Below are positions 409-31,553 of a DNA stretch of 35,949 nt, in pieces. This DNA is from a virus. Both the position numbers and the translations under genes were made by a program. Position 1 is the first letter of the stretch. Every line of letters begins with the position of its first letter. The stretch is taken from the IMG/VR virus record IMGVR_UViG_3300020735_000006, positions 1-35,949 of that record; one strand, 5' to 3'. Under the pieces are notes generated by a model. That model was not told where the DNA came from. It did not search any database and was given only the letters and a program-made list of their open reading frames with translations.

Positions 409-739
409 GACCGGGTTTCCACGGAATACGATTTTTGTATACTTCTTGAGTACAATTTAAACAAATAGTTTTGAGATTAAAATCGTTATTATTTTTTAAA
501 TTTCCATCAACATAGAATACATTACTTTGCTCTGGAAGAGTAAACTTAAAGCCACATTTCTCGCAATGTGGCTTTTTCTTATACCCGCTTTTAGCCCACC
601 CAGGTGGTTCTGGCTTTCGTTTTCTACTATTTCTAATACAACTAGCACAACTATTTCTATAATGTCGCACCCCATCTCGGATATAGTTAACAGATACTGG
701 ATTAGCACGACATATAGGGCATAGATCACGTTTAAGCAT
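389..739 (-). CDS. Small zinc-ribbon / HNH-like protein
   Basis: A 116-aa protein with three cysteine pairs: CPIC near the N-terminus, CEKC in the middle and CLNC near the end, plus a CASC. The spacing suggests bound zinc. The C-terminal YVDGN...NLKTICLNC resembles the beta-beta-alpha core of HNH/endonuclease VII-type proteins, although the usual first His is Tyr here. It is convergent with the kinase and shares 20 bases with it. There is no Shine-Dalgarno sequence; AATAAATA lies 4 bases before the ATG, as for several other genes in this window. Function is unproven: it could be a DNA-binding protein or a nuclease. Confidence 0.65.
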   Translation of the reverse strand: MLKRDLCPICRANPVSVNYIRDGVRHYRNSCASCIRNSRKRKPEPPGWAKSGYKKKPHCEKCGFKFTLPEQSNVFYVDGNLKNNNDFNLKTICLNCTQEVYKNRIPWKPGPIVPDF

Positions 740-743
740 ATAG

Positions 744-751
744 TATTTATT
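744..751 (-). promoter_or_regulatory. Late-promoter-like octamer AATAAATA
   Basis: Reverse-strand AATAAATA, one base from the T4 late consensus TATAAATA, 4 bases before the ATG at 739. If used as a promoter it would give an almost leaderless mRNA. Confidence 0.45.
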
Positions 752-801
752 ACCCTAACCTTCCCAAAGGCTCCTGTAACGCCCCTATTTTACACCTTTA
801 T

Positions 802-809
802 TATAAATA
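802..809 (+). promoter_or_regulatory. T4-type late promoter TATAAATA for the sheath gene
   Basis: Exact TATAAATA octamer 31 bases before the sheath ATG. A conventional AAAGGA ribosome site follows at about 827-832, so this promoter gives a normal leader. Confidence 0.7.
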
Positions 810-840
810 ACTATAACATGTATTTTAAAGGAATATAACC

Positions 841-3800
841 ATGGCACTAGTATCTCCAGGAATTCAGATTTCCATATCAGACCAAAGTCAATCAGTTAAC
901 GGTAATGTTGGTTCAGTACCATTAGTGATTTTAGCAACAGCGCAAGATAAAACATATAACGGTGCCCCTGCTACAGGTACATCTAAGGCTAACGCAGGAA
1001 AACTACTATCATTTAGTAGCCAACGCGATTTAGTTACACAAATGGGTACACCAACTTTCCAGTTAAGTGCTACTGGTACTCCTGTTAACGGCAGTGAAGT
1101 TAACGAATACGGACTATTAGCAGCGCATAGCGCACTAGGATTAACTAATCAACTATTTGCTATTCGTGCTGATATTGATTTAGCTGAACTAGTTGGCACA
1201 ACTGTTCGTCCAATTGGTGAGCCAGCAGATGGCACACTTTGGTTAGATACAGTAAACACAACATGGGGTATTAACTCACTAGATTCTTTAGCTGGCGCAT
1301 TCAGTGAAGTTGCTCCGTTAATAATCACAGATCCTGCCCAAGTATCTGATGTAACGATTAATAGTATAACTGTCTCAACCCCAATAAGTTCTATTGGTAC
1401 TATTGGCCAATATGCATTAGTGTTCATTAATACAGATGGTTCTACAACAACACAGGCTCGCTTATTTTACAAAAAAGGCCCAAACTCATATATTGGTGCA
1501 GTTGCATCAAACACTTGGGTATTAGTGGGTAGTCCGGATTGGCAAGTAAGTTTACCTGCAATTTATGGTACAGTAAATAATCCTAGTATTGCAACAAGTA
1601 GTACTGTGACAATTAATAGTGTTCCTGTTACATCAGATGGCACAGTAACTACACTTGGTGGTAATAATGGGTTAGTAGCTAAGATCAATGGCGCAACTAT
1701 TCCTGGGGTATATGCTGGACTATCAACGACTGGCGCTCTATTATTATTTGTAAATAGTCTTGCAACAAGTAATGGTTCTACTGTTGATGGTAAATTAATT
1801 ATTACTGACGGCACACATAGCCCGATGTATGCTGCCGGTATTGTAACTGTTCCAAGTTCCGGTACAGCTACAGCATATTGCCCAATTTTATTCTATGGTT
1901 CATATGCAGATACTCCGACATTCAACAATGGACAATCTGGCTGGTTTGTAACTGACAATGCACCACGCCCAACTGGCTCTATTTGGTGGAAAACCAGTGC
2001 ATTAGGAAATGGATTTAATCCAGTTATTAGTAAATTTAACTCTAGTTTAAATCAATGGCAACAACTAGCAGCACCAATGTTCCCATATTTCTCTGATTCA
2101 GTTTATGGCCTAGATCCAATTGGCGGCGGAGCAAACATTAAAAATGGTCAGCTATTATCATTATTTGGTGTGCTTGATGGGACTTACAACATTTTAAAAT
2201 TTGCTGAAGAAACTGAAATGGGTATGTCTAGTGCAACTGGCGGCCCAGCGGGTACCTTTACTGTTGGTAATTCATTCATTGTGCGTTCAACTGTACCGGG
2301 TACAGCAACTCAACTTGTAACAACAGTTACATTAACAGGAACAACAGCACAGAGTTTTGTGGCTAATTTATTAGCTGCTAACATTCCGTATGTTACAGCA
2401 TCTGTAACTACTATTGGTTCAACAACTACAATTACTATTACACATACAACTGGGGGTAATCTTGGTTTATCAGATAATGCCGGAACACCGTTAGAAACAG
2501 CAGGATTTGTCGCTGGTCAGGGTTCAGGATTCTTTGTTGAATCTAACCGTGTTATTATTAATAGTTTCACTGAAGTAACTAACGTTGTTTCGTATACAGT
2601 TAGCGCACCACATTCATCACCAGCAAGTGGCACACTATGGTATAACAGTGATGCAGTTGACATCGACATTATGATTAACAATAATGGTTGGAAAGGTTAC
2701 AAAAACGTAGGTAGCGATATCCGTGGATATAATTTAACTTCAACAGATCCACTAGGTGTTATTGTTACTCCTTCTACAGCACCAACAAGTCAAACCGACG
2801 GAACAGCACTAGTAGCAGGTGATTTATGGTTAGACAGTGGCGATTTAATTAACTATCCAAGTTTATATCGTTATAACGGTACTAAGTTTGTAGCAATTGA
2901 TAATACAGACCATACAAGTTCTGCTGGTATTATCTTTGCTGATGCGCGATGGGACACAAGCGGTACTACTGATATTGTTACTAGCAATTTACCGAGTGTT
3001 GTTGCATTATTAAACAGTGATTATATTGATCAAGATGCTCCGGATTATCGTTTATATCCACGTGGAACATTAATGTTTAATATGCGTCGTAGTGGATATA
3101 ATGTTAAGAAATTTGTTCCTAACTATTTTAACTCAACTAGTTTCCCTAATTTGCCAACAGTTCCTAATGCTGGTAATACTTTACCAACTATTAAAGATGC
3201 ATGGGTAACAACAAGTGGTTTAGATAATAACGGTGTTATGAATTCTGGAGCAAGAGCACAACGAGCAATGATCGCTAGTGCAATGCAATCGGCAGTTGAT
3301 AGCAACCTTGATGCATCATCATTATCATTCCAATTTAATTTATTAGTTGCCCCTGGATATCCAGAAGTAGTTCCTAATTTATTAACATTAAATAGCAACC
3401 GTGGCGATACAGCGTTTGTTATCGGTGATACCCCAATGGATCTAGCACCTAATACAGTTGACCTTACAAACTGGAACAATAACATTACTAGTACATGGGC
3501 TATAGCTGGTGCAAGTGCTAGTCCATACTTAGCAGTATATTACCCAGCTGGTCGTACAACAGATTTATCTGGTAATACTGTAGTAGTTCCGGCAAGTCAC
3601 GCTGCGTTACGTACATATTTGTATAACGATCAGGTTGCATATCCGTGGTTCGCTCCAGCAGGTACTCAACGTGGTGTAGTTACTAATATTGGCGACATTG
3701 GTTATATTAATAGTGCAACCGGTGGATTCATTCATAACTCTATTAACCAAGGGTTACGTGATGCATTGGCTACATTAGAAATTAATCCAATAACACAACT

Positions 3801-4182
3801 ACCGGGTGCCGGACTTGTTGTGTGGGGACAGTTAACACGCAGCGGCGCAACAACTTCACGTAATCGTGTAAACGTTGTTCGATTAGAAAATTACTTACGT
3901 ACAATTTTCCAATCAATTGCAAACGGTTATTTATTTGAGCCAAATGATGTTACTACACGCAAATCAATTGCATCAGCAGTTAGTGGTTCGTTGAATAGTG
4001 TATTAGCTCATCGCGGGTTATATGATTTCTTAGTAATTTGCGATTCAAGCAACAATACAAGTTCTACTATTGCTAATAACCAACTATATGTTGACGTTGC
4101 TATTGAACCAGAACGTGATGTAGAGTTTATCTTTATCCCGATTGCGATTTACAACCCAGGCACAATCGCTAGCTTCAGATAA
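841..4182 (+). CDS. gp18: Contractile tail sheath protein (T4 gp18-like), enlarged
   Basis: An 1113-aa sheath subunit. The N-terminus (ALVSPGIQISISDQS) and the C-terminal region, with a gp18-like NPI...GLVVWGQ strand, VNVVRLENYLRTIFQ helix and VEPERDVEFIFIP ending, are characteristic of T4-type sheath proteins. The sheath polymer surrounds the tail tube and contracts at infection. T4 gp18 has about 659 residues, so roughly 450 extra residues lie in the middle. They are rich in Thr, Ser, Gly and Val with repeated short beta-strand patterns, and probably form surface domains on the sheath. The gene has a late promoter at 802, an AAAGGA ribosome site and the tube gene directly downstream, the T4 order. 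Confidence 0.93.
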   Translation: MALVSPGIQISISDQSQSVNGNVGSVPLVILATAQDKTYNGAPATGTSKANAGKLLSFSSQRDLVTQMGTPTFQLSATGTPVNGSEVNEYGLLAAHSALGLTNQLFAIRADIDLAELVGTTVRPIGEPADGTLWLDTVNTTWGINSLDSLAGAFSEVAPLIITDPAQVSDVTINSITVSTPISSIGTIGQYALVFINTDGSTTTQARLFYKKGPNSYIGAVASNTWVLVGSPDWQVSLPAIYGTVNNPSIATSSTVTINSVPVTSDGTVTTLGGNNGLVAKINGATIPGVYAGLSTTGALLLFVNSLATSNGSTVDGKLIITDGTHSPMYAAGIVTVPSSGTATAYCPILFYGSYADTPTFNNGQSGWFVTDNAPRPTGSIWWKTSALGNGFNPVISKFNSSLNQWQQLAAPMFPYFSDSVYGLDPIGGGANIKNGQLLSLFGVLDGTYNILKFAEETEMGMSSATGGPAGTFTVGNSFIVRSTVPGTATQLVTTVTLTGTTAQSFVANLLAANIPYVTASVTTIGSTTTITITHTTGGNLGLSDNAGTPLETAGFVAGQGSGFFVESNRVIINSFTEVTNVVSYTVSAPHSSPASGTLWYNSDAVDIDIMINNNGWKGYKNVGSDIRGYNLTSTDPLGVIVTPSTAPTSQTDGTALVAGDLWLDSGDLINYPSLYRYNGTKFVAIDNTDHTSSAGIIFADARWDTSGTTDIVTSNLPSVVALLNSDYIDQDAPDYRLYPRGTLMFNMRRSGYNVKKFVPNYFNSTSFPNLPTVPNAGNTLPTIKDAWVTTSGLDNNGVMNSGARAQRAMIASAMQSAVDSNLDASSLSFQFNLLVAPGYPEVVPNLLTLNSNRGDTAFVIGDTPMDLAPNTVDLTNWNNNITSTWAIAGASASPYLAVYYPAGRTTDLSGNTVVVPASHAALRTYLYNDQVAYPWFAPAGTQRGVVTNIGDIGYINSATGGFIHNSINQGLRDALATLEINPITQLPGAGLVVWGQLTRSGATTSRNRVNVVRLENYLRTIFQSIANGYLFEPNDVTTRKSIASAVSGSLNSVLAHRGLYDFLVICDSSNNTSSTIANNQLYVDVAIEPERDVEFIFIPIAIYNPGTIASFR

Positions 4183-4196
4183 GAGAACGTTAATTA

Positions 4197-4204
4197 GATA
4201 AATA
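4197..4204 (+). promoter_or_regulatory. Late-promoter-like octamer GATAAATA before the tube gene
   Basis: GATAAATA 19 bases before the tail-tube ATG, followed by an ACAGGAGA ribosome site. One mismatch from TATAAATA. Confidence 0.5.
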
Positions 4205-4223: not shown

Positions 4224-4841
4224 ATGGCATCATTAAATACACTTTCGGTACAAGCAGCAGGCGCTAATCAAGGCCTTTTGATGCCAAAGTTAAAATATCG
4301 CTTTCGTGCGATATTTACAGGATTCGGCGTTGATAATGCCGGACTAACAGAATTAACTAAACAAGTAGTTGACATTAAACGCCCAAACGTAAATTTTAAC
4401 CCAATTACAATTGACGTTTATAACTCAAAGGTTTTCCTACAAGGTAAACCGGAGTGGCAAGATACAACTATTAACATTCGCGACGACGCCACTGGCGCTG
4501 TTAGTAAAATGGTTGGTCAGCAAGTTCAGAAGCAATTTGACTTCTTGGAACAAGCTAGTGCTCCAAGTGGCGGCGACTATAAGTTTAGTATCACATACGA
4601 AGTATTAGACGGCGGTAATGGCGCTACTACTCCTAATGTTCTCGAATCGTGGGAATTAGATGGTTGCTTCCTAAGTCAAGTTGATTGGGGCGATATGGCC
4701 TATAATAGTAATGATCCTGTTCAGATTGCATTAACTATTAAATTTGATAACGCTATTCAAACAAGTGGTATAAGTGCTACTGTTTCACCTGCAATAGCTG
4801 GTACCCCTGGCGGTACAGCAGTAGGCGGTACTGGTAGTTAA
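4224..4841 (+). CDS. gp19: Tail tube protein (T4 gp19-like)
   Basis: A 205-aa protein beginning with a short tail, then LKYRFRAIFTGFGVDN, a KQVVDIKRPNVNFNPITIDVYNSKVF block and a WELDGCFLSQVDWGD segment. These are hallmark strands of the T4 gp19 tail tube fold, which builds the hexameric inner tube. The length is slightly above T4 gp19 (about 163 aa), with a Gly/Thr-rich C-terminal extension. It has a strong AGGAG ribosome site, follows the sheath gene and is followed by a clear intrinsic terminator. Confidence 0.93.
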   Translation: MASLNTLSVQAAGANQGLLMPKLKYRFRAIFTGFGVDNAGLTELTKQVVDIKRPNVNFNPITIDVYNSKVFLQGKPEWQDTTINIRDDATGAVSKMVGQQVQKQFDFLEQASAPSGGDYKFSITYEVLDGGNGATTPNVLESWELDGCFLSQVDWGDMAYNSNDPVQIALTIKFDNAIQTSGISATVSPAIAGTPGGTAVGGTGS

Positions 4842-4860: not shown

Positions 4861-4888
4861 AAACCCGGAGTTAAAACCCGGGTTTTTT
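4861..4888 (+). terminator. Rho-independent terminator after the tail tube gene
   Basis: AAACCCGG (4861-4868) pairs with CCGGGTTT (4878-4885), loop about 9 bases, followed by a continuing T-run to 4888. Confidence 0.85.
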
Positions 4889-4894: not shown

Positions 4895-4902
4895 CATAAA
4901 TA
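4895..4902 (+). promoter_or_regulatory. Late-promoter-like octamer CATAAATA abutting a start codon
   Basis: CATAAATA followed by 5 bases and then ATG (4908), directly after the terminator. No Shine-Dalgarno sequence is present. Confidence 0.5.
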
Positions 4903-4907: not shown

Positions 4908-6371
4908 ATGAGCATAAATCATATCCTAAATAGTAAATCTTCTACTATGCGTAGTTATCAACATGCATCTCGTATTTTTGTTGATGGTAATTATCGATTA
5001 AGTCCTAAGTACGGATTCTTGTTCTATGTAGAATTTGATTTTAACCCACTGATTAGTAATGTTAGTAATACTTCTGCACAAGAAATGGGAATGATTGTTA
5101 AAAATATCAATCTACCAAAATTCACAATGGATATTAAAGCGCACAATGCTTATAATCGTGTGAACTTAGTTCAAAATAAAATTAAGTATGACCCTATTAA
5201 CATTGTATTCCATGATGATCAAGCAGATACCGTAAGAGATTTCTGGTATGACTATTATAGTTTCTTCTATCGTGATAGTGATTACAACGATGCTACATAC
5301 AGTATTGTTAATAAGTACCAAGAGCGTCCTAGCTTCGAATGGGGGTATACTCCGCGCCCTGTTAGTAGTTATAATGCAGCTAATGCATATCAAAGCTATC
5401 AATATATACAGGCTATAAGAATTTATAGTTTGTATCAAAAGAACTTTGCCGAATATGAATTAATTAATCCTATCATTACAAGTTTTAGACATGGTGAACA
5501 TAACACAAGCGAAGGAACTGGACTATTAGAACACCAAATGAGTGTTCAATTTGAAACAGTAAAATATCAAACAGGATACACTACACAAAATACGGTAGGG
5601 GGTTATATAGATTTACATTATGACAATACTCCAACTCCGTTAGTAACAAATCCATCTGACGTTAATCTAGTAGATAACGGGCATGGCGGCGTTGCTACTG
5701 CCCCAGACACAATAACAGATTTAGCAAATTTTAATTTATCCACTAGTGGCGGTCAAGTTGTACCACAGCCATCGAGCTCTGCTTTAGCGGCATCAGTTTC
5801 ATTCTCATCTATTACAAGTTCACTTTTATCAACGTCGGCTACCAATGGCGTTAACGCAGGCGGATTTGCATTACCTGCATTAGGAAGTTTAACCTCGGGG
5901 CTTAGTAATAGCAATTTAATACAACAACAACTACAAGCGGCAACTATAAGTCTTGCTGGTAGAGCAGCGTCTACTTTAGCTGGAGGAGTAATTGGTGGGA
6001 TCACATCAGGCTTAGGACCAGCTGGTACAGCAGTTCTTGGGCTGGCAGTATCAGCAATCGCTAATCCAAGTGCTACACTTAAAACTGCCGAAAACATGGC
6101 TATTAATTATGCAACAAATGCGGCATCTTCGGCAATTCAAAATGCATTAAATCCAATTGCTAATAAGATTCAAAGTGAGATATCAGGCTTCATTGGTGAC
6201 AACATTACAACTCCTGTTACTGCGGCACTAGGCGATGCTAGTACATATATACAAAATCAAATCGGCGAAGGCCTAGCAAGCTTCTCGTTTGGCGGAGCAG
6301 ATGATGCAGTTACCGCAGCATTGTTTAGCGGTGATTCATCATATGATGCTGCTGCAGGGTGGTCAAGTTAA
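4908..6371 (+). CDS. Second tail-tube-fold protein (tube/baseplate hub-like)
   Basis: A 487-aa protein from ATG 4908. An upstream in-frame TTG at 4890 lies within the terminator and promoter, so I prefer the ATG. Residues about 20-215 look like an expanded tube-fold domain: SPKYGFLFYVEFDF, VKNINLPKFTMDIKAHNAYNR and KIKYDPINIVFHDD. This resembles gp19 relatives and the baseplate tube initiators gp48/gp54. Residues about 260-487 are Ala/Ser/Gly-rich and amphipathic without recognisable motifs. Its place next to sheath and tube supports a structural role in the tail, perhaps as tube initiator or terminator. The exact T4 counterpart is unclear. Confidence 0.65.
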   Translation: MSINHILNSKSSTMRSYQHASRIFVDGNYRLSPKYGFLFYVEFDFNPLISNVSNTSAQEMGMIVKNINLPKFTMDIKAHNAYNRVNLVQNKIKYDPINIVFHDDQADTVRDFWYDYYSFFYRDSDYNDATYSIVNKYQERPSFEWGYTPRPVSSYNAANAYQSYQYIQAIRIYSLYQKNFAEYELINPIITSFRHGEHNTSEGTGLLEHQMSVQFETVKYQTGYTTQNTVGGYIDLHYDNTPTPLVTNPSDVNLVDNGHGGVATAPDTITDLANFNLSTSGGQVVPQPSSSALAASVSFSSITSSLLSTSATNGVNAGGFALPALGSLTSGLSNSNLIQQQLQAATISLAGRAASTLAGGVIGGITSGLGPAGTAVLGLAVSAIANPSATLKTAENMAINYATNAASSAIQNALNPIANKIQSEISGFIGDNITTPVTAALGDASTYIQNQIGEGLASFSFGGADDAVTAALFSGDSSYDAAAGWSS

Positions 6372-7195: not shown

Positions 7196-7203
7196 AATAA
7201 ATA
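7196..7203 (+). promoter_or_regulatory. Late-promoter-like octamer AATAAATA abutting gp16 start
   Basis: AATAAATA then 5 bases then ATG (7209). It sits in a small palindrome (ACCAATAAATATTGGT). No Shine-Dalgarno sequence. Confidence 0.45.
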
Positions 7204-7721: not shown

Positions 7722-7729
7722 TATAAATA
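7722..7729 (+). promoter_or_regulatory. T4-type late promoter TATAAATA
   Basis: Exact TATAAATA 19 bases before ATG 7749, with a TAGGAAA ribosome site between. Confidence 0.7.
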
Positions 7730-23849: not shown

Positions 23850-23858
23850 GATTTGAAG

Positions 23859-23866: not shown

Positions 23867-23874
23867 GAAACACC

Positions 23875-23959: not shown

Positions 23960-23981
23960 CACAATTCAATTAGGAAATATT

Positions 23982-24559: not shown

Positions 24560-24568
24560 GCATTGAAT

Positions 24569-24653
24569 GGGATCGTGGAGAAATTGGTATACTCAGGAGA
24601 CTTAAAATCTCCCGTCGCAAGACATGGCGGTTCAAGTCCGCCCGGTCCTACCA
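24569..24653 (+). tRNA. tRNA-Leu(TAA)
   Basis: 85-base class II tRNA. Acceptor GGGATCG/CGGTCCT, anticodon stem GGAGA/TCTCC, loop CTTAAAA, T-loop TTCAAGT, encoded CCA. Confidence 0.94.
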
Positions 24654-24681
24654 TTAACATTCTTTCTAGCCAGTTGCATTA

Positions 24682-25311
24682 ATGAAATCTATCTTTATAC
24701 TGTACCTTCCAGGATATGCAGGTAATTTTTTAACCAGACTATTCAGCCTAGGAGCAGATACAGTACCGCATCTACCTAAAGATGAACTAACTAAAGCAGT
24801 AGATTTGGGTTGCCTCCCAGATATGGCAAACAAAATACAGTGGTATCGATTCTCAAAAGTAAATCAAACATTTGAAAATTGGCAAGAGTTTCATCGAAGT
24901 TGGCCCGATTTTTATGATAGAGAATTATTCGAAGAGTACATACAACTACTAGATCCTACTCCGGGTAATATTGTTTATAGCATACACCCCCATGAATTTG
25001 ATATATTTTTGAAAGATATAACATCAATTGAGGATCGGCAGTTATTTTATGTCGAATTGGACCTAACAAAATATGCAGAATGGTTAGCTACAGCTACACT
25101 TAAACTTGGGTTTGTTTGTAGACCAAATGAAGTTGCACAGCTAAATCATTTTTGTAAATTTGACATGGAACCGATTAGTTTAACTTCTATGTTAGACTCT
25201 GAAGAATCATTTATAGAAGAATATCATAGGGTATGTGATCTAATGTCACTTGCTAAAGTTACTAGTAGTGCAGTAGAATTATATCGAGATTGGACAAGTA
25301 TTAGAGGTTGA
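24682..25311 (+). CDS. Putative P-loop/sulfotransferase-like phage protein
   Basis: A 209-aa protein beginning FILYLPGYAGNFLTRLFSLG, a strand, a Gly-rich loop and a helix. The loop resembles the phosphate-binding loop of sulfotransferase folds. The protein at 12015 has the same layout (YYPVGARGDFLAAIL). Later segments (NIVYSIHPHEFDIFL, then FVELDLTKYAEWLATATLKLG) are compatible with an alpha/beta fold. Substrate and catalysis are unknown. No clear ribosome site. A sigma70-type promoter begins over its stop codon. Confidence 0.6.
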   Translation: MKSIFILYLPGYAGNFLTRLFSLGADTVPHLPKDELTKAVDLGCLPDMANKIQWYRFSKVNQTFENWQEFHRSWPDFYDRELFEEYIQLLDPTPGNIVYSIHPHEFDIFLKDITSIEDRQLFYVELDLTKYAEWLATATLKLGFVCRPNEVAQLNHFCKFDMEPISLTSMLDSEESFIEEYHRVCDLMSLAKVTSSAVELYRDWTSIRG

Positions 25312-25336
25312 CAGATAAATAACTTTAATGTACAAT
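25308..25336 (+). promoter_or_regulatory. Sigma70-type promoter
   Basis: TTGACA (25308-25313), 17 bases, TACAAT (25331-25336). Downstream is a 95-base untranslated stretch containing AAAAAGGATAAATAAAT, then a second promoter. Confidence 0.6.
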
Positions 25337-25400
25337 CAGTGCATTAGTTAACAAAGTTTTACAAAAAGGATAAATAAATTACTGACAGCCAAATTGGTGG

Positions 25401-25429
25401 TTGACAGTAAAAGATCAATAAGCTACAAT
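25401..25429 (+). promoter_or_regulatory. Sigma70-type promoter immediately before a small ORF
   Basis: TTGACA (25401-25406), 17 bases, TACAAT (25424-25429). The start would fall about 3 bases before ATG 25439, giving a leaderless or nearly leaderless message. Confidence 0.65.
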
Positions 25430-25438
25430 AGATATATT

Positions 25439-25594
25439 ATGAAATTACAGAATTTTAAACAGTCCGTACAACATACGCAACCAGCAGGGATGTCAGCCTA
25501 TTGGTCAGTGAATTGTGCGCCGGCGATGTTTAATAGTAATTCAGATCGCGGCACAGAGATTAGAAGTAGGGTCCACGGAGTTATGGTTAGTTAA
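25439..25594 (+). CDS. Small unknown ORF, 51 aa
   Basis: An ATG directly downstream of a strong promoter encodes MKLQNFKQSVQHTQ followed by AYWSVNCAPAMF. No family or motif is recognised and there is no ribosome site, so translation would need leaderless initiation. An intrinsic terminator 30 bases after its stop makes a complete small transcription unit (about 25436-25654). It could instead be a small regulatory RNA. Confidence 0.4.
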   Translation: MKLQNFKQSVQHTQPAGMSAYWSVNCAPAMFNSNSDRGTEIRSRVHGVMVS

Positions 25595-25623
25595 GTAAAA
25601 ACAAATCATAAAGAACTTTAAGG

Positions 25624-25654
25624 ACCCTAGGATATAAAAACCCTAGGGTTTTTT
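25624..25654 (+). terminator. Rho-independent terminator
   Basis: ACCCTAGG (25624-25631) pairs with CCTAGGGT (25642-25649), followed by TTTTT. Confidence 0.88.
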
Positions 25655-25671
25655 GTTATTAGGAACAGTAT

Positions 25672-25827
25672 ATGAATGTAAAGAACATTAGAGAGTTTAC
25701 TGGCTTGGTTCTTTCAGCAGAGCAGAAGGTTGAACTGATGGAAGCCAAAGTTAGGCGAGCCGAAGCACATATTAAGAGTTTAGCAGAACAAGCTAAACTA
25801 CTTGAAAAAGCTCGAGCTCGTAGATAA
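25672..25827 (+). CDS. Small coiled-coil protein, 51 aa
   Basis: A short protein starting at ATG 25672 behind TTAGGAACA. After a short N-terminus the sequence is one continuous heptad-like helix (AEQKVELMEAKVRRAEAHIKS and onward) with a basic end RARR. It is probably a dimeric coiled coil; function unknown. It sits between a terminator and the next tRNA. Confidence 0.6.
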   Translation: MNVKNIREFTGLVLSAEQKVELMEAKVRRAEAHIKSLAEQAKLLEKARARR

Positions 25828-25897
25828 GAAGTAAGTGTTAACAGGAAACGAGATCCTATGCTACACTATAAACAAGCATAAATGGGCGGAACTAAGG

Positions 25898-26020
25898 ATG
25901 GAGCACCTCGTGTGGTGTGAAAAATCTAGTTATAGTAAAGTACTTTGGATGACCATCTGGCGAGAGAAGCAGGCCGCATCGACCGCGGCTGACAAGTACA
26001 TAACGCACGAAAAAGTGTAA
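25898..26020 (+). CDS. Doubtful 40-aa ORF overlapping a closed inverted repeat
   Basis: ATG 25898 opens a frame encoding MEHLVWCEKSSYSKVLWMTIW and a basic remainder. GGCGGA lies about 11 bases upstream. A 15-bp perfect inverted repeat (25930-25944 and 26034-26048) encloses most of the frame, so this stretch may be a structured RNA rather than a gene. No family recognised. Confidence 0.25.
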   Translation: MEHLVWCEKSSYSKVLWMTIWREKQAASTAADKYITHEKV

Positions 26021-26048
26021 AATGTATACCCAGAGTACTTTACTATAA
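25930..26048 (+). repeat. 15-bp perfect inverted repeat closing a 119-base segment
   Basis: TTATAGTAAAGTACT at 25930-25944 and its exact complement AGTACTTTACTATAA at 26034-26048, ending 5 bases before tRNA-Tyr. The interior contains a GC-rich GGCCGCATCGACCGCGGCT segment. Confidence 0.7.
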
Positions 26049-26053
26049 ACAAC

Positions 26054-26138
26054 GCACAAGCGGCTAAGTTGGAGAGTGGCGGCTGACTGTAAATCAGTTC
26101 CTTAGGGTGAATAGGTTCGAATCCTATCTTGTGCACCA
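26054..26138 (+). tRNA. tRNA-Tyr(GTA)
   Basis: 85-base class II tRNA. Acceptor GCACAAG/CTTGTGC, anticodon stem CTGA/TCAG, loop CTGTAAA, T-arm ATAGG-TTCGAAT-CCTAT, encoded CCA. Confidence 0.95.
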
Positions 26139-26160
26139 ATTGAAGTATAAGTAAGTATAT

Positions 26161-26234
26161 GCGGGTATGGTGTAATGGTAACCCGAGACCTTGCCAAGGT
26201 TTAGTTGAGAGTTCAATTCTCTCTACCCGCTCCA
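26161..26234 (+). tRNA. tRNA-Gly(GCC)
   Basis: Acceptor GCGGGTA/TACCCGC, discriminator T, loop TTGCCAA, T-arm GAGAG-TTCAATT-CTCTC, encoded CCA. Confidence 0.94.
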
Positions 26235-26250
26235 ACTTTAATAAAATATA

Positions 26251-27108
26251 ATGCCGAGTAGATTACTCTTTGTTGGATGTAACAAAATAATAGATTCAGT
26301 TATTAGTTTACAATTTGACAAATACCTAACACCTAAACCTAGTAAGACTATAATTTACCTAGGATCGCGTGAACATGGGGTACGTAACGATATTGATTTG
26401 CTTGGGTTATACCAACAGTACAACATAGATACCACAAATTTTAGTGTAGTACACGATTTAGATTTATTAGATACATACAAGAATATACGTCTAATTAATT
26501 TATTTCAACCATGGATTTTACAACAACTTTTAAAATTGATGGCAGTTGACACATGCAACGATAATAAAATATTAATTCAAGACAGTGATATTATATTGTT
26601 GAAACCTTATGTTTATTTTGAAAACAATATACCTGTACCATTTAAATTTGAGAATATGTCACACTCTGCAGGATATTACAAATACGTTGAAACATTTACT
26701 GGACAGTTAAGACAAACCGAAGATTGTTTTGTTACAGACTTTATGCCGTTTCGTAAAAGCGACTGGCAATCTCTAAAACAACACATTGAGCAATCATACA
26801 GAACAGATTGGTTAACAGCAATAACAACTCAATTTAAAAAGGATCACCCATATCCAAAAGGTAATATAGCGTTTAGTGAGTATGAATTGTTAGGTAATTG
26901 GTTGTTAATCAATTATCCCGATCTTAAAACAGTACAACAGTATCATTATCCGTTAACAGCAGAACGTACTAGATTTATAAAGAACAAAAATTTTGAGTTA
27001 AGTGATTTTAAAAAAGAATCATTTGACAGTATTGCTATAAAACTATATAATGATGACATAAGACTTAGTCTTGATGATGTAGATTATATAGTAAAGTATT
27101 TTACATGA
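26251..27108 (+). CDS. GT-A-like glycosyltransferase-type protein
   Basis: A 285-aa protein. The central ILIQDSDIILLKP (residues 107-119) is a DxD-type segment at the end of a beta strand, as in GT-A glycosyltransferases, where it holds metal and sugar nucleotide. A later EYELLGNWLLINYPD stretch resembles the acceptor-side helix seen in related capsule or LPS proteins of this type. The substrate is unknown. Its stop codon overlaps the first two bases of tRNA-Trp. Confidence 0.6.
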   Translation: MPSRLLFVGCNKIIDSVISLQFDKYLTPKPSKTIIYLGSREHGVRNDIDLLGLYQQYNIDTTNFSVVHDLDLLDTYKNIRLINLFQPWILQQLLKLMAVDTCNDNKILIQDSDIILLKPYVYFENNIPVPFKFENMSHSAGYYKYVETFTGQLRQTEDCFVTDFMPFRKSDWQSLKQHIEQSYRTDWLTAITTQFKKDHPYPKGNIAFSEYELLGNWLLINYPDLKTVQQYHYPLTAERTRFIKNKNFELSDFKKESFDSIAIKLYNDDIRLSLDDVDYIVKYFT

Positions 27109-27180
27109 GTCTCAAGTGTTACGGTAGCACAGCGGCCTCCAAAGCCTCAGGCCGGGGTTCGACTCCCTGGAGATTCGCCA
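27107..27180 (+). tRNA. tRNA-Trp(CCA)
   Basis: Acceptor GAGTCTC/GAGATTC, discriminator G, loop CTCCAAA, T-loop TTCGACT, encoded CCA. One mismatch in the anticodon stem. The 5' end overlaps the stop of the preceding gene. Confidence 0.9.
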
Positions 27181-27198
27181 GATTAAAAAGGAAATAAA

Positions 27199-27759
27199 AT
27201 GAAATATTTGTATTATGTGTTTTACTTGCCAATGGCATTAGTTGATATATTGTTATCATATGTTATATCGTATCCACTTGCACCACTGTTGCCATTGTTT
27301 GCAACAGAACAAGACGGCCCACTAGATAATGGTGGTCATACAGGATTAGGACCAAGATTACCTAAGTGGCTTAATTGGTTTCAAACGCCCGACAATAGCT
27401 TGTATGGTGATGCCGGATTTATTGCTATTAATGGCCAAAGCTATTTGTCACAAGTTAAATGGTTATGGCGCAATCCGGCATATTCGTTTGCTATGAGTAC
27501 TGTAACAAGTCCTTATACTACAAGTTTTAGTGGAGATCCAACTATCAAGGATAATGATAATGCCCGAGCTGGCTGGTGCGTAGCCCATGTAAATGATTTA
27601 TTTTTACTTAGATTAGTTTTACCAATTGGATTTAGTCGTTGTATCTATTGTAACTTTGGCTGGAACATTATGGCCATTGTAGATCCTAATGTACAACCGA
27701 AGCCAACAACATGGCAAGCAACATTTGTATTCAGTCCTAGATTATCGGGATTTAGGTAA
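27199..27759 (+). CDS. Membrane-anchored unknown phage protein
   Basis: A 186-aa protein with a good AAAAGGAAA ribosome site. Residues about 4-35 (LYYVFYLPMALVDILLSYVI and continuing) form a long hydrophobic segment, likely a signal anchor or transmembrane helix. The remainder is aromatic-rich with conserved-looking WFQTPDNSLYGDAGF and WLWRNPAYSF motifs. It resembles conserved proteins seen in other phages, but I cannot name a function. It lies alone between two tRNAs. Confidence 0.72.
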   Translation: MKYLYYVFYLPMALVDILLSYVISYPLAPLLPLFATEQDGPLDNGGHTGLGPRLPKWLNWFQTPDNSLYGDAGFIAINGQSYLSQVKWLWRNPAYSFAMSTVTSPYTTSFSGDPTIKDNDNARAGWCVAHVNDLFLLRLVLPIGFSRCIYCNFGWNIMAIVDPNVQPKPTTWQATFVFSPRLSGFR

Positions 27760-27769
27760 CAAGTTTTAT

Positions 27770-27843
27770 GCGGGATTAGTTTAGGGGCAAAACAGCAGAT
27801 TTCCAATCTTCGGTCATCGGTTCGATTCCGATATCCCGCTCCA
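27770..27843 (+). tRNA. tRNA-Gly(TCC)
   Basis: Acceptor GCGGGAT/ATCCCGC, discriminator T, loop TTTCCAA, T-arm ATCGG-TTCGATT-CCGAT, encoded CCA. Confidence 0.93.
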
Positions 27844-27866
27844 AGTTTTAAAGTAGTGTATTATGT

Positions 27867-27939
27867 TCCGAGCAAGCAAACACGGTGTAGGCGGCGGACT
27901 GTTAATCCGTTAAGCCTGGTTCGATTCCAGGGCTCGGAG
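27867..27939 (+). tRNA. tRNA-Asn(GTT), CCA not encoded
   Basis: Acceptor TCCGAGC/GCTCGGA, discriminator G, loop CTGTTAA, T-arm CCTGG-TTCGATT-CCAGG. The array's only otherwise normal tRNA without an encoded CCA (CAT follows). Confidence 0.92.
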
Positions 27940-27952
27940 CATAGTACATTAT

Positions 27953-28027
27953 GGGGGTGTAGTGCTAATGGGAACACATCTGGTTTGCAACCAGAAATTG
28001 AGAGTTCGATTCTCTCCATCTCCACCA
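27953..28027 (+). tRNA. tRNA-Ala(TGC)
   Basis: Acceptor GGGGGTG/CATCTCC with G.T pairs, anticodon stem TCTGG/CCAGA, loop TTTGCAA, T-loop TTCGATT, encoded CCA. Confidence 0.93.
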
Positions 28028-28030
28028 TAC

Positions 28031-28105
28031 GGTAATGTAGCATAATGGTAGTGCTCCACCTTCATACGGTGTTCAGTGTAAGTTCGACTCTTACCATTAC
28101 CACCA
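28031..28105 (+). tRNA. tRNA with CAT anticodon (Met or Ile2)
   Basis: Acceptor GGTAATG/CATTACC, discriminator A, loop TTCATAC, T-loop TTCGACT, encoded CCA. Second of three CAT tRNAs. Confidence 0.92.
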
Positions 28106-28117
28106 AATCTTTCCTAT

Positions 28118-28194
28118 TGCGGGAGAGTAAAACGGTTTAAACGTCAGTCTCATAAGCTGAAGACATCAGGTTCGACTCCTGCTTCCCGCAACCA
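28118..28194 (+). tRNA. tRNA with CAT anticodon (Met or Ile2)
   Basis: Acceptor TGCGGGA/TCCCGCA, discriminator A, anticodon stem TCAGT/GCTGA, loop CTCATAA, encoded CCA. Its 3' end resembles initiator tRNA, but positions 1 and 72 can pair (T-A) and the G-C-rich anticodon stem of initiators is missing. Confidence 0.9.
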
Positions 28195-28205
28195 ATTTAA
28201 TACGG

Positions 28206-28248
28206 CCCTCTTCTATCGCTTAACTGGATAGCTTGAGGGTTCTTTTTT
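28206..28248 (+). terminator. Terminator-like hairpin inside the tRNA array
   Basis: CCCTC + CTATC on the left arm pair with GATAG + GAGGG on the right arm, followed by TTCTTTTTT. Internal loops TT/CTT. It directly precedes an abnormal tRNA. Confidence 0.6.
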
Positions 28249-28322
28249 GCCTCGGTAGTTTAAAAGTAGAACACCCTCCTTACAAGTGGAAGACGGCGGA
28301 GCATTACCGCAACGAGGTACCA
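28249..28322 (+). tRNA. Atypical tRNA-Val(TAC)-like gene
   Basis: Acceptor GCCTCGG with 3' ACGAGGT, then ACCA. The loop CTTACAA would give anticodon TAC, but the anticodon stem has mismatches and the T-loop is AGCATTA instead of TTCRANY. It may be degenerate or modified. No other Val tRNA is present. Confidence 0.45.
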
Positions 28323-28329
28323 ACAATTT

Positions 28330-28404
28330 GCCCTATTATCCTTAATGGTAGAGGTCCTGTTTTGTAATCAGGGTGTGGAAGTTCGATTCTTTCATGGGGC
28401 ACCA
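28330..28404 (+). tRNA. tRNA-Thr(TGT)
   Basis: Acceptor GCCCTAT/ATGGGGC, loop TTTGTAA, T-loop TTCGATT, encoded CCA. One mismatch at the base of the anticodon loop. Confidence 0.9.
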
Positions 28405-28504
28405 AGTTTTGAAGAAGCCTGGTTTAAATCCGGCCCGCCGGGAAACGGTTAATAGTCCGTCCTAGCGGTAGATTAATAATTAATAAATCGTCAAATTTAA
28501 CAAT
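28405..28504 (+). other. 100-base gap with tRNA-like fragments
   Basis: Contains CCTGGTTTAAATCCGG (T-arm-like) followed by CCTAGCGGTAG (D-arm-like). A consistent acceptor stem was not found, so no tRNA is called. Confidence 0.3.
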
Positions 28505-28579
28505 CTCAGTGTAGGCAAGTGGTATGTCGCTTGGTTTGGGACCAAGACGTCGAGTGTTCGATTCACTCCACTGAGACCA
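28505..28579 (+). tRNA. tRNA-Pro(TGG)
   Basis: Acceptor CTCAGTG/CACTGAG, discriminator A, anticodon stem CTTGG/CCAAG, loop TTTGGGA, encoded CCA. Confidence 0.94.
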
Positions 28580-28587
28580 CAAACAAT

Positions 28588-28662
28588 AGCCGGTTAGCTC
28601 AGTGGTAGAGCAGCGCCTTGATAAGGCGTTGGCCGCAAGTTCAAATCTTGCACCGGCTACCA
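28588..28662 (+). tRNA. tRNA-Ile(GAT)
   Basis: Acceptor AGCCGGT/ACCGGCT, anticodon stem GCGCC/GGCGT, loop TTGATAA, canonical D-arm AGCTCAGTGGTAGAGC, encoded CCA. Confidence 0.96.
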
Positions 28663-28669
28663 AAACAAT

Positions 28670-28759
28670 AGTGAGTTGGGCGAGAGGCTTATGCCGTTAG
28701 TTTGCTAAACTGATGATCCCTAAAAAGGTCCGTGAGTTCGAATCTCACACTCACTGCCA
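28670..28759 (+). tRNA. tRNA-Ser(GCT)
   Basis: 90-base class II tRNA. Acceptor AGTGAGT/ACTCACT, discriminator G, loop TTGCTAA, T-arm GTGAG-TTCGAAT-CTCAC, encoded CCA. Confidence 0.95.
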
Positions 28760-28765
28760 TACACA

Positions 28766-28840
28766 GGGTCTTTCGTAGAATGGATATTACGCAACGCTAC
28801 GGACGTTGAAATGTGGGTTCGATTCCTGCAGGACCCGCCA
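28766..28840 (+). tRNA. tRNA-Arg(ACG)
   Basis: Acceptor GGGTCTT/AGGACCC, discriminator G, anticodon stem CAACG/CGTTG, loop CTACGGA, encoded CCA. It needs host TadA to convert A34 to inosine. Confidence 0.94.
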
Positions 28841-28863
28841 ATTTAAAATGAAAGGAGAAGGTA

Positions 28864-29268
28864 ATGTCGTATTATGACAAGTTGTGTGAAGTAGACGTAT
28901 TAAAAGGTAAAACATTATCTTCTGTTCATAGAGATGGTGACGAGGAAATCTTGTTTGAAACAGTGGATGGTGACGTCTATCGAATGTTTCACAGCCAAGA
29001 TTGTTGTGAGTCGGTGTATATTGAAAGTATTGTTGGCGATTTACAAGACTTAGTAGGTGAAGAAATCTTAGTAGCTGAAGCAAATGAAAATTTGTTTGAT
29101 ATATTGAAAAATGCAGGTAAAGAAGAAGATGACTGTGATGAATCATACACTTGGACATTCTACAAGTTTGCTACACGTAAAGGTTATGTAGATATTCGTT
29201 GGTATGGATCATCAAATGGTTATTACTCAGAGTCGGTAGACTTTGTAAAAGTACAAGGAGAAGTATAA
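28864..29268 (+). CDS. Conserved small acidic phage protein
   Basis: A 134-aa protein with an AAAGGAGAA ribosome site. The pattern GKTLSSVHRDGDEEILFETVDGDVYRMFHSQDCCESVYIESIVGDLQDLVG belongs to a small-protein family common in phages and plasmids (I recall it as DUF7448-like; not verified). The HSQDCCE segment with His and paired Cys could bind metal. Function unknown. Its stop overlaps the ATG of the next small gene (TAATG). Confidence 0.82.
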   Translation: MSYYDKLCEVDVLKGKTLSSVHRDGDEEILFETVDGDVYRMFHSQDCCESVYIESIVGDLQDLVGEEILVAEANENLFDILKNAGKEEDDCDESYTWTFYKFATRKGYVDIRWYGSSNGYYSESVDFVKVQGEV

Positions 29269-29474
29269 TGAAAGCAAGAAACATATATGCAGTATTAGCC
29301 AGTAAACGGAAGGCGGGCTCGCACCGCAAGAGCAATAAAGCTCTACGTAAATTAACTAAACAGCGGGATCGTAGCTCAAAGGCAGAGCAAGAGGCTTTTA
29401 ACTTCGAGGTTGTCAGTTCAAGTCTGACCGGTCCCACCATATTAAAACATATTTGCAACCACATGGGAGTGTAA
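29268..29474 (+). CDS. Small basic protein whose frame runs through tRNA-Lys
   Basis: The ATG overlaps the stop of the preceding gene. The first 35 residues, MKARNIYAVLASKRKAGSHR followed by KSNKALRKLTKQ, are strongly basic and resemble small phage proteins with an AGxHRKSxKA core. From codon 33 the frame passes through the whole tRNA-Lys and stops inside hairpin unit 8, so the last half of the 68-aa product is encoded by RNA-gene sequence. Either the protein has acquired a foreign tail or a shorter original stop was lost. Confidence 0.5.
   Translation: MKARNIYAVLASKRKAGSHRKSNKALRKLTKQRDRSSKAEQEAFNFEVVSSSLTGPTILKHICNHMGV
29365..29439 (+). tRNA. tRNA-Lys(TTT)
   Basis: Acceptor GGGATCG/CGGTCCC, discriminator A, loop CTTTTAA, T-arm GTCAG-TTCAAGT-CTGAC, encoded CCA. 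Its ACCA is also the first four bases of hairpin unit 8. Confidence 0.93.
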
Positions 29475-29503
29475 AGTCCGTGGGGAGTGTGTTTTAATAT
29501 GGT
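29436..29503 (+). repeat. Hairpin unit 8 (copy inside the tRNA array)
   Basis: Left arm ACCATATTAAAACATA (29436-29451), right arm TGTGTTTTAATATGGT (29488-29503): 16 bp with one G.U. The interior TTTGCAACCACATGGGAGTG is shared with unit 6 at 33611. It starts on the ACCA of tRNA-Lys. Confidence 0.85.
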
Positions 29504-29517
29504 ACAAGACGAACAAA

Positions 29518-29592
29518 GGGGGATGGGCAGGGTACCCGGATTTGCTTTGCAAGCAGATAGCCTGATCGGTTCGAGTCCGATATTCTCCACCA
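29518..29592 (+). tRNA. tRNA-Ala(TGC), second copy with odd D-arm
   Basis: Acceptor GGGGGAT/ATTCTCC, anticodon stem TTTGC/GCAGA, loop TTTGCAA, T-arm ATCGG-TTCGAGT-CCGAT, encoded CCA. The D-arm (GGGCAGGGTACCC) is unlike a normal one. It lies between unit 8 and a lone right arm. Confidence 0.82.
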
Positions 29593-29600
29593 ATTACTTG

Positions 29601-29616
29601 TATGTTTTAATATGGT
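29601..29616 (+). repeat. Lone right arm of the hairpin family
   Basis: TATGTTTTAATATGGT, the exact 16-base complement of the left arm of unit 8. It could pair with that arm to enclose unit 8's right arm and tRNA-Ala. Confidence 0.75.
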
Positions 29617-29632
29617 AGAGCGGCGGAGTAAG

Positions 29633-29640
29633 CATAAATA
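29633..29640 (+). promoter_or_regulatory. Late-promoter-like octamer CATAAATA
   Basis: CATAAATA 16 bases before ATG 29657, with an AAAGGA ribosome site between. Confidence 0.5.
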
Positions 29641-29656
29641 ACTTAAAGGATATATT

Positions 29657-30268
29657 ATGCTTATTTGTAAATTTTGTAATAAAGAATGTAAGTCGCCGAA
29701 CTCCTGGAGAAACCACGAAAGATTGTGCCACTCAAATCCAAACAGACAAATATCAAGTTTCACTTGGTATAATTACGAAAATAAAGTTGCGTGGAACAAA
29801 GGAAAAACAAAAGCAGAATTCCCTTCACTGGCACGACCTAACCAAATTGGGAAAAAGTTTGGATCTGCACTTACTGGGCACACTGAGGAAACTAAGAAAA
29901 AAATTAGTGCTAAGTTATCAATAAACAATAAGGGAGGAAGATCCAAGTGGTACGAAGTTGCTGGACAAAAAGTACAAGGTACTTGGGAAAGAAATGTTGC
30001 CTTAAAGTTTGAAGAGTTGCACATTAAGTGGGAAAAACTTAAAACAAATAGAGATACACTTGAGTATGTAATGGACGGAAAAACTCGATCTTATACTCCA
30101 GATTTTTTTCTCCCTGATAATAATCTTTATTTAGAAATTAAAGGACATTGGTGGGGCAACGATAGAGAAAAAATGGATATTGTATTAAAAACATATCCTG
30201 ATATAAAGATTATCATCGTTGAAAAAGATGATTACGAAAAGATTTTGCGAGGTGAGCTAGTTTGGTAA
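29657..30268 (+). CDS. Putative homing endonuclease (zinc finger, NUMOD-like, PD-(D/E)XK)
   Basis: A 203-aa protein of modular build. It has an N-terminal C2H2-type finger (CKFCNKECKSPNSWRNHERLCH), a NUMOD3-like DNA-binding linker (AWNKGKTK, HTEETKKKIS) and a C-terminal nuclease-like core, YTPDFFLPDNNLYLEIKG, with the PD...ExK residues. This combination is typical of free-standing phage homing endonucleases. It lies within the tRNA array, and its last 22 bases overlap the 5' half of tRNA-Phe, so its insertion point seems to be the tRNA locus. The cut site is unknown. Confidence 0.78.
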   Translation: MLICKFCNKECKSPNSWRNHERLCHSNPNRQISSFTWYNYENKVAWNKGKTKAEFPSLARPNQIGKKFGSALTGHTEETKKKISAKLSINNKGGRSKWYEVAGQKVQGTWERNVALKFEELHIKWEKLKTNRDTLEYVMDGKTRSYTPDFFLPDNNLYLEIKGHWWGNDREKMDIVLKTYPDIKIIIVEKDDYEKILRGELVW

Positions 30269-30325
30269 TTCCAGCGTATGCCTGAAGAGCATAAGAACTA
30301 GGTTCGATTCCTAGACCTCGCACCA
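30247..30325 (+). tRNA. tRNA-Phe(GAA)
   Basis: Acceptor GCGAGGT/ACCTCGC, anticodon stem TATGC/GCATA, loop CTGAAGA, T-arm CTAGG-TTCGATT-CCTAG, encoded CCA. The 5' 22 bases overlap the nuclease gene's end. Confidence 0.93.
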
Positions 30326-30334
30326 AAGTTCTAT

Positions 30335-30408
30335 TGAGGTATAGTGTAATGGTAACACTACGCACTTTGACTGCGTCATTCTAGGTTCAAGTCCTGGTAC
30401 CTCTACCA
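30335..30408 (+). tRNA. tRNA-Gln(TTG)
   Basis: Acceptor TGAGGTA/TACCTCT with an unpaired 1-72 position, as is common for Gln; anticodon stem ACGCA/TGCGT, loop CTTTGAC, encoded CCA. Confidence 0.92.
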
Positions 30409-30409
30409 A

Positions 30410-31540
30410 CTAAGATATTATATCAGTGAAATATTTGACTATCTCTGGAAAAGTTTCTTTCCAGTTTAATTTACGTTTTTTATCATGAAACTCGATATAT
30501 TGAATAAACGCATTAAATTTATCTTTGTCGAACGGTCTCATTCTATTAACTAGCCAGGGATCGTTTGCGTATTTTGTTTTAATTTCTTCCATCAGATTTG
30601 GGGGAATCGACGAGGTGTTAATAATTCCATTTGTATCAAACCCCTGTAAGAATCTTAGGTCATTACTACTCTTGCGCGGGGGGAAAATTGTTTTTTCCCA
30701 TTCCATATATTGATCGTAATAAAAAATGTTCAATGGGTTAATAGCAGAACTAATTTCCAATTTGATGTCTGGGATGTTTAAATTGATAATATATTTAATA
30801 TTATTTTCAACTTGATCCCACTGCAAAGGCCACCGTAAATAATTAAAATGTTCGCCAATGCCATCAATACTGAAACTAATTTGTAAGGTTTTTAATTGTT
30901 TCCATAATTCAATAGTTTCGGCGTCAGGTTTTTGACTACCGTTAGTGACATATCTCACTGATACTTGATCTAATGGTTTAGATTTTTGAATATCTTTAAG
31001 CGTTTGTTTATGGAATTCACTAAGTAGAGGCTCTCCTCCTAAGAATACTACTAAGTTAACATCATTTAATGAAACAAACTTAAATATGTTGTTATATCGA
31101 TTTGTTGCGTTTACATCTGCAATTATATCGATTTGTTTATTAATTACACTTTTGTTTACTGCATTACTAGAACTATATTTTTGCCATGTTGTACTATTAT
31201 AATCGCCACATATTAAACAGGCAGCATTACAATTAGTATCAATTTGAAATTCCAAGGATGTAACTTTGTTGATTTCGAGGACATTAGTGATCCCAACTAT
31301 AGATGGTTTCTTTTCGGCGATTTGTCTGGGTGATATAACATTACGACTTTCTTTTTCTTGGCAAAAATTGCATTCGGGTACCCAATCGTCGATTTGTCCT
31401 AACCAATTTTGATATTCATTGAATTCATCTTGTGTACTACTCATAATATTAAATTTCTTAGTAATCCAACAACACGGTGCATAATCATTGTATTCAACAC
31501 GTGCTTGATTTTTTAGATATAAACAAAAAGGTTTTTTCAT
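30410..31540 (-). CDS. Radical SAM protein
   Basis: A 376-aa protein from the ATG at 31540; a 12-residue longer start at 31576 exists, but a late-promoter octamer lies inside that extension. The iron-sulfur motif is CNAACLIC (C104, C108, C111), followed by FLGGEPLL and the SFSIDG strand of the radical SAM barrel. Two extra Cys groups lie N-terminally (APCCW, then CNFC), which may bind an auxiliary cluster as in twitch/SPASM-type enzymes. Similar proteins occur in other T4-like phages; the substrate is unknown. It is convergent to tRNA-Gln. Confidence 0.88.
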   Translation of the reverse strand: MKKPFCLYLKNQARVEYNDYAPCCWITKKFNIMSSTQDEFNEYQNWLGQIDDWVPECNFCQEKESRNVISPRQIAEKKPSIVGITNVLEINKVTSLEFQIDTNCNAACLICGDYNSTTWQKYSSSNAVNKSVINKQIDIIADVNATNRYNNIFKFVSLNDVNLVVFLGGEPLLSEFHKQTLKDIQKSKPLDQVSVRYVTNGSQKPDAETIELWKQLKTLQISFSIDGIGEHFNYLRWPLQWDQVENNIKYIINLNIPDIKLEISSAINPLNIFYYDQYMEWEKTIFPPRKSSNDLRFLQGFDTNGIINTSSIPPNLMEEIKTKYANDPWLVNRMRPFDKDKFNAFIQYIEFHDKKRKLNWKETFPEIVKYFTDIIS

Positions 31541-31545
31541 GCTAT

Positions 31546-31553
31546 TATTTATA
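31546..31553 (-). promoter_or_regulatory. T4-type late promoter TATAAATA (reverse strand)
   Basis: Exact TATAAATA on the reverse strand, 5 bases before ATG 31540, giving a predicted near-leaderless radical SAM message. Confidence 0.6.

Follow-up and report, generated by a model that had tools for sequence, protein, structure and literature searches.

What kind of message does a T4-type late promoter make when its octamer lies only a few bases before a start codon? The question is posed by the first 35,949 nucleotides (nt) of a 108,109-base virus record (IMG/VR IMGVR_UViG_3300020735_000006), a stretch that makes up the first third of that record and is hereafter called the window. A first-pass annotation had pointed to seven genes without Shine-Dalgarno (SD) sequences in which an (N)ATAAATA-type octamer precedes the ATG by 4–6 bases, and to four others (841, 4224, 7749 and 29657) with the octamer 16–31 bases away plus a ribosome-binding site, and had proposed that the first set gives leaderless or near-leaderless late messages. 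We found both sets of coordinates to be correct, and the pattern of octamer-to-ATG distances in the record, in its relatives and in the cultured pelagiphage HTVC008M backs the proposal: gp55-type late promoters in this phage very probably yield two message types, one leaderless or nearly so (0–3 nt of leader) and one leadered with an SD site.

Throughout, the gap is the number of nt between the octamer end and the ATG, with start codons set here by an open reading frame (ORF) rule; the near class has gaps of ~4–7 nt and the far class gaps of 16–34 nt. A GGA/AGGA-type site accompanies each of the four far octamers. The sites and their genes are as follows.

389–739, minus strand: near-class gene of 116 amino acids without a PHROG family, predicted leaderless
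744–751, minus strand: near octamer AATAAATA, 4 nt before the ATG at 739
802–809, plus strand: far octamer TATAAATA, 31 nt before the sheath ATG (28–34 nt in most relatives)
841–4182, plus strand: tail sheath gene, 1113 amino acids (phrog_10581, E 6e-177), predicted leadered with SD site
4197–4204, plus strand: far octamer GATAAATA, 19 nt before the tube ATG
4224–4841, plus strand: tail tube gene (phrog_4542), predicted leadered with SD site
4861–4888, plus strand: intrinsic terminator between the tube gene and the 4908 near promoter (fold -17.5 kcal/mol, z -3.8)
4895–4902, plus strand: near octamer CATAAATA, 5 nt before the ATG at 4908
4908–6371, plus strand: second tail-tube-type gene (phrog_4542, 5e-9), predicted leaderless
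7196–7203, plus strand: near octamer AATAAATA, 5 nt before the ATG at 7209
7209–7712, plus strand: near-class gene (phrog_16202, function unknown), predicted leaderless
7722–7729, plus strand: far octamer TATAAATA, 19 nt before the ATG at 7749
7749–8363, plus strand: far-class gene, 204 amino acids, predicted leadered with SD site
12606–12613, plus strand: near variant octamer CTTAAATA, 6 nt before the terL ATG
12620–14185, plus strand: terminase large subunit gene, terL (phrog_36964, E 4e-122)
14748–14755, plus strand: near octamer AATAAATA, 5 nt before the ATG at 14761, within the 3′ end of the preceding gene
14761–16161, plus strand: virion structural protein gene (phrog_13484, 9e-19), predicted leaderless
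22052–22059, plus strand: near octamer GATAAATA, 4 nt before the ATG at 22064, overlapping the end of the preceding gene
22064–23728, plus strand: near-class gene (phrog_3560, function unknown)
29633–29640, plus strand: far octamer CATAAATA, 16 nt before the ATG at 29657
30410–31540, minus strand: radical SAM-type gene, near class (phrog_14086, 3e-8)
31546–31553, minus strand: near octamer TATAAATA, 5 nt before the ATG at 31540

The octamer is not over-represented in the window, where TATAAATA occurs 5 times against 5.6 expected and ATAAATA 17 times against 19. Because these raw counts are at chance level, the motif by itself is no proof, and it is the distance to the start codon that carries the signal. 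A record-wide count of gaps between ATAAATA and any ATG starting an ORF of 60 or more amino acids, the check proposed with the original observation, gave a sharp peak and, beyond a zone with no counts, a second and broader one: among the 39 occurrences in the record, 9 have an ATG at 4–6 nt and 14 at 16–34 nt, with none at 0–3 nt and none at 7–15 nt. For the 4–6 nt gap, ~0.37 would be expected (Poisson P ~2e-10), and set against the reversed-pattern control the record gave 13 vs 0. ATAAATA ranks first among all 7-mers at 4–6 nt before an ATG in the record; when the 20 other permutations of five A and two T were counted at the same position, the best, at 5, was AATAAAT, which overlaps ATAAATA; the others reached 0–2. 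Octamers of the type first described are thus present, but their core is better written NTAAATA, octamer position 1 being preferentially G, and these preferences are common to the near and far classes. Using the TAAATA core, we assigned 13 of the 118 longer ORFs in the record to the near class, and 9 combine an octamer with an SD site. Extra near genes beyond the window lie at record positions 38198, 43095 (minus strand), 43139, 50373, 88265 and 92745 (minus strand); those at 43095 and 43139 form a divergent pair 43 bp apart, with two head-to-head octamers in between.

The T4 late octamer spans −13 to −6 (PMC2988020). With this geometry, and +1 after 5 nt, a 5-nt gap would place the A of the AUG at +1, give or take one base, a gap of 16–34 nt would give a leader of 11–29 nt, and the avoided gaps would mean leaders of ~3–10 nt. 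We propose that the octamers are T4 gp55-type late promoters placed within either of two fixed distance ranges before the start codon, with gp55-directed RNA polymerase as the likely maker of both transcripts. In the far class, transcription would begin ~5 nt past the octamer and yield a leader of 11–29 nt that contains an SD-type site. For near-class genes (4–5 nt, also 6–7 nt), the transcript would start on or beside the A of the AUG, leaving a leader of 0–3 nt, and the mRNA would be translated SD-independently, probably by 70S ribosomes binding to the 5′-terminal AUG; gaps of 4 and 5 nt both predict an AUG at the extreme 5′ end. Leaders of ~4–10 nt would be too long for leaderless initiation and too short for an SD site, and they are predicted to be nearly absent.

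The same two-class distribution is seen in relatives. Two IMG/VR scans gave 160 loci (about 150 relatives, 2 Mb), which are not independent of each other, and statistics on them are descriptive; their gaps peak at 4–5 nt (with a minor peak at 7) and at 17–25 nt, with few between. In the six long relative records, G001 to G006 (G003 without its last 1,732 bases and G002 without its last 49), the counts at gaps of 4–7, 8–15 and 16–34 nt are 18/1/38, 6/0/21, 8/0/21, 13/4/37, 6/1/11 and 7/0/11, respectively. Of the octamer-led genes, roughly one in three has a promoter that abuts the ATG.

Class goes with the gene and, for the most part, is conserved: orthologs of 739, 7209, 14761 and 4908 are mostly near, and 841, 4224 and 7749 have far-class orthologs. 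TAAATA stands 4–5 nt before the start in 39 of 41 distinct upstream sequences of 739 orthologs; the gap is 4–7 nt in 68 and 19–25 nt in 10 of the 78 orthologs of 14761, and 4–6 nt in 49 and 16–23 nt in 13 of the 76 orthologs of 4908. On the far side, an SD-like 4-mer is present in all 48 sheath orthologs that carry the octamer. Far-class orthologs of the 4224 tube gene have an SD in 57/57, with every core-carrying ortholog at a gap of at least 18 nt, and for 7749 the core-carrying orthologs all have gaps of 17–26 nt (SD in 44/56). Relatives without an exact ATAAATA usually have GTAAATA or CTAAATA in the same position. Spacer length is fixed while spacer sequence varies, with 75 different spacers among 122 cases of a 5-nt gap.

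The bases around the start codons are consistent with transcripts that begin at the near AUGs. The base preceding the ATG is T at 80% of near vs 40% of far sites (P 2e-18), which fits a start with a pyrimidine at −1 and a purine at +1. Where the gap is 7 nt, a TA step lies four and five bases past the octamer, from which a leader of ~3 nt would be predicted. SD-like 4-mers were found at 7 of 217 near vs 185 of 257 far sites. No conserved −35 element is present, as columns upstream of the octamer hold at most 0.23 bits vs 0.9–1.8 for the octamer core. A −10 box that precedes the start codon by ~10–12 bp is accepted as a mark of leaderless genes (PMC3160421), and near-class genes have a −10-type signal at this fixed distance from the AUG. 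Their starts comprise 291 ATG vs 15 GTG/TTG, about the background rate; AUG is strongly favoured in leaderless translation (PMC9031893).

Class switches add a comparison within single genes. On a FastTree tree of terL, orthologs of 7209, 4908 and 14761 switch between 4–8 and 16–26 nt in separate branches, and these switches nearly always skip 9–15 nt. SD-like triplets change with the class, from 0/46 in near to 12/13 in far forms of 7209, from 6/66 to 8/10 for 14761 and from 16/49 to 13/13 for 4908. A stricter 4-mer test of the far forms of 7209, 14761 and 4908 gave 1/13, 2/10 and 5/13, the lower scores indicating that their SDs are weak.

A second lineage shows the near arrangement at a single gap. 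HTVC008M has nine genes with ATAAATA exactly 5 nt before the ATG and none at 4 or 6, and, within the 50 kb of annotation covered, deposited starts match at seven sites: 6280, 7562, 16007 (minus strand), 18916 (minus strand), 19456, 31132 and 49760. Among 80 pelagimyophage loci found via HTVC008M terL, a gap of 5 nt occurs 27 times and a gap of 4 nt not at all. In these phages, too, ATAAATA stands 5 nt before the ATG of baseplate, tape-measure and further genes; they differ from the window's clade in forming a separate branch near the cyanophages and, in the isolate, in a gap of strictly 5 nt. HTVC008M is placed with Kyanoviridae, its terL being 65% identical to that of S-PM2, and this position near the cyanophages means that the near class probably arose twice, with an independent origin in pelagimyophages. 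A survey of pelagimyophages (PMC7029224) reports that attempts to predict their late promoters failed, and we suggest that the near-class arrangement could explain this.

As for the phage itself, the window encodes a sheath, two tube-type genes, head closure, the terminase large subunit, a gp32-like single-stranded DNA-binding protein, uvsX and uvsY. Its nearest isolates are jumbo phages, among them PA5oct, Atu_ph07, Phosso and the CBB group. The terL product is ~54% identical to that of PA5oct and 29% to that of T4, a distant relationship only, and the structural genes do not have the close sequence relationship to T4 that Tevenvirinae in the strict sense would show. Two classes of late genes had been called unusual for a T4-like phage; the pattern is indeed absent or no higher than background in T4, cyanophages and the nearest isolates, and the phage is a distant, jumbo-type T4 relative. 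A terL search of genome contigs, aimed at the host, found no relative. An HNH endonuclease gene lies at 11435–11965 (minus strand), and an adjoining TATAAATA at 11975 (plus strand) has no assigned gene.

A gp55-family sigma was found in five of the six long relatives (G001, G002, G004, G005 and G006) and in PA5oct. These sigma ORFs have ~290–305 amino acids in this clade and PA5oct vs 164 in S-PM2. A search for the sliding clamp gp45 with phrog_223 gave no match anywhere, and its control was also silent, which makes the result uninformative. G001, G002, G004 and PA5oct encode an initiator-type tRNA-Met (C1 x A72 mismatch), and PA5oct, G001, G003 and G004 a ribosomal protein bS21 (PF01165; ORFs of 71–88 amino acids); additional copies of initiator tRNA reportedly favour leaderless translation (PMC9031893). 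We considered the initiator tRNA and bS21 together as the cause of leaderless use and rejected this, since PA5oct has both with a near class of only 1–2 sites, and the pair is therefore not diagnostic. The window's two tRNA-Met genes have paired 1–72 ends and are thus not of the initiator type. In all, 26 tRNA genes cluster at window positions 23775–34214, with small ORFs and the radical SAM gene in between.

Several points weigh against leaderless near-class messages, beside the non-independence of the relatives. The lack of SDs at near sites is partly forced, because the octamer fills the SD position, and a third of the 4908 near-class upstream sequences retain a GGA/AGG/GAG triplet. For gaps of 4 and 5 nt both to put the AUG at +1, start-site choice must shift by one base. 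The site before terL, already singled out as the weaker octamer and confirmed as CTTAAATA, is the least conserved among the well-sampled near sites: the core lies at 4–9 nt in 31 of 88 orthologs and is absent in 42. Orthologs of the 22064 site (2 upstream sequences) and the 31540 site are too few in number to judge. Finally, neither the 108-kb record nor G003, each possibly a fragment, yielded a gp55.

If near genes were instead translated mainly from longer read-through messages, the near promoter would be a minor extra. Some T4 genes are transcribed from several promoters, which fits such a view, and 14761 and 22064 abut their preceding genes with no terminator found, so that read-through is possible there. 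We nevertheless consider it unlikely. A terminator-like element lies within 90 nt upstream of 62 of the 76 orthologs of 4908 vs 0.6% of random 90-mers, and with transcription ending just upstream those genes would need an abutting promoter. The genes at 739 and 31540 are opposite in strand to their neighbours, the 43095/43139 pair diverges from 43 bp, and read-through leaves both the fixed 4–5 nt gap and the scarcity of gaps of 8–15 nt unexplained.

The near octamer might also be no promoter, and instead enhance translation as an A/U-rich element or bind ribosomes in a non-SD manner. A/U-rich leaders are able to aid SD-less initiation, in keeping with this idea, but it is very improbable given that this octamer, first-base preference included, is also found 16–34 nt upstream of SD genes, that A/T 7-mers of equal composition have no comparable peak, and that cyanophages carry the same octamer with no near peak. 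We think it slightly less probable again that the true starts lie further downstream behind ordinary SDs and that the near ATG is incidental. Assigning starts by an ORF rule leaves room for this; in codons 2–30, however, SD-led in-frame starts occur in only 0/76 orthologs of 14761, 1/67 of 7209, 1/39 of 739 and 3/65 of 4908, the 7209 protein is conserved from residue 2 onward, near-class starts are nearly all ATG, and the deposited starts of HTVC008M are the near ATGs. That an AT-rich genome places ATAAATA near ATGs by chance agrees with the total octamer count, but we reject it as scarcely conceivable on the position statistics (P ~2e-10 in one record), the reversed-pattern control (13 vs 0) and replication in relatives and a second lineage. 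Host sigma70 promoters were likewise rejected, as there is no −35 signal.

With leaderless near-class messages as the preferred reading, a wider interpretation suggests itself, to which we give roughly even weight: one late promoter type serves two conserved, gene-specific translation modes, the mode evolves across a nearly forbidden leader length, and the arrangement has two or more origins among T4-related phages (a freshwater jumbo clade and the pelagimyophages). It may exploit a ribosome state less contested by host SD messages, possibly helped by phage initiator tRNA and bS21 in some relatives. If this is true, the clade's messages would depart from textbook T4 late messages, which carry SD leaders, and environmental phages would rely, for whole sets of adjoining late virion genes, on an initiation route deemed rare in enterobacteria. 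Start-codon calls would improve, and there would be a hint as to why late-promoter prediction failed in pelagimyophages. The switches would amount to natural experiments on the benefit of leaderless translation, with the same gene and promoter found with and without a leader. Leaderless mRNA and gp55 promoters are already known, and their combination in T4-related phages appears undescribed: the open-licence literature that we searched nowhere describes leaderless T4-type late messages or a dual late mode, in HTVC008M or elsewhere.

Among the closest known systems is late transcription in T4, dependent on gp55, gp33 and gp45 and directed by TATAAATA. Shared features are an octamer at −10, the lack of a −35 element, an AT-rich start region and, in this phage's relatives, a gp55-family sigma; the far-class genes resemble T4 late genes. 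T4 differs in that, over the 50 kb tested, its octamers lie 12–35 nt ahead of the start codon and ATAAATA never stands at 4–8 nt; the consensus here is also looser, (G)NTAAATA. Whole-record counts did not clearly exceed the reversed-pattern control in T4, S-PM2, KVP40, Aeh1, phiM12, Cr30, P-SSM2, CBA120, GAP32, 121Q, 2.275.O, CBB, Atu_ph07, Phosso or PA5oct, and in 80 cyanophage-type loci only 2 of 289 ATAAATA fall at 4–6 nt.

The nearest isolates, PA5oct, Atu_ph07, Phosso and CBB, share the sheath, tube and far octamers, and the first three also a close terL. In these phages, unlike in the window, orthologs of near-class genes lack a near octamer, and several have an SD-type site; the Phosso ortholog of 14761, for instance, has an SD and its octamer 21 nt away. 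In its whole genome, PA5oct has no more than two near-class sites. Its gp262 (L166:44986-45855), annotated as a structural protein detected by ESI-MS/MS mass spectrometry, has TATAAATA exactly 5 nt before the deposited ATG.

Outside the T4-related phages, the TA-led leaderless genes of Actinobacteria and Deinococcus-Thermus (PMC3160421) share the fixed −10-to-AUG distance, the lack of an SD and the use of AUG; here, a phage late promoter provides the signal and, within one and the same virion-gene block, drives SD-led genes as well. Leaderless mRNAs known from phages, lambda cI for example, have the 5′-terminal AUG and SD-independent initiation that we predict for the near class. Those are single repressor-type genes, whereas the arrangement described here recurs in late structural genes.

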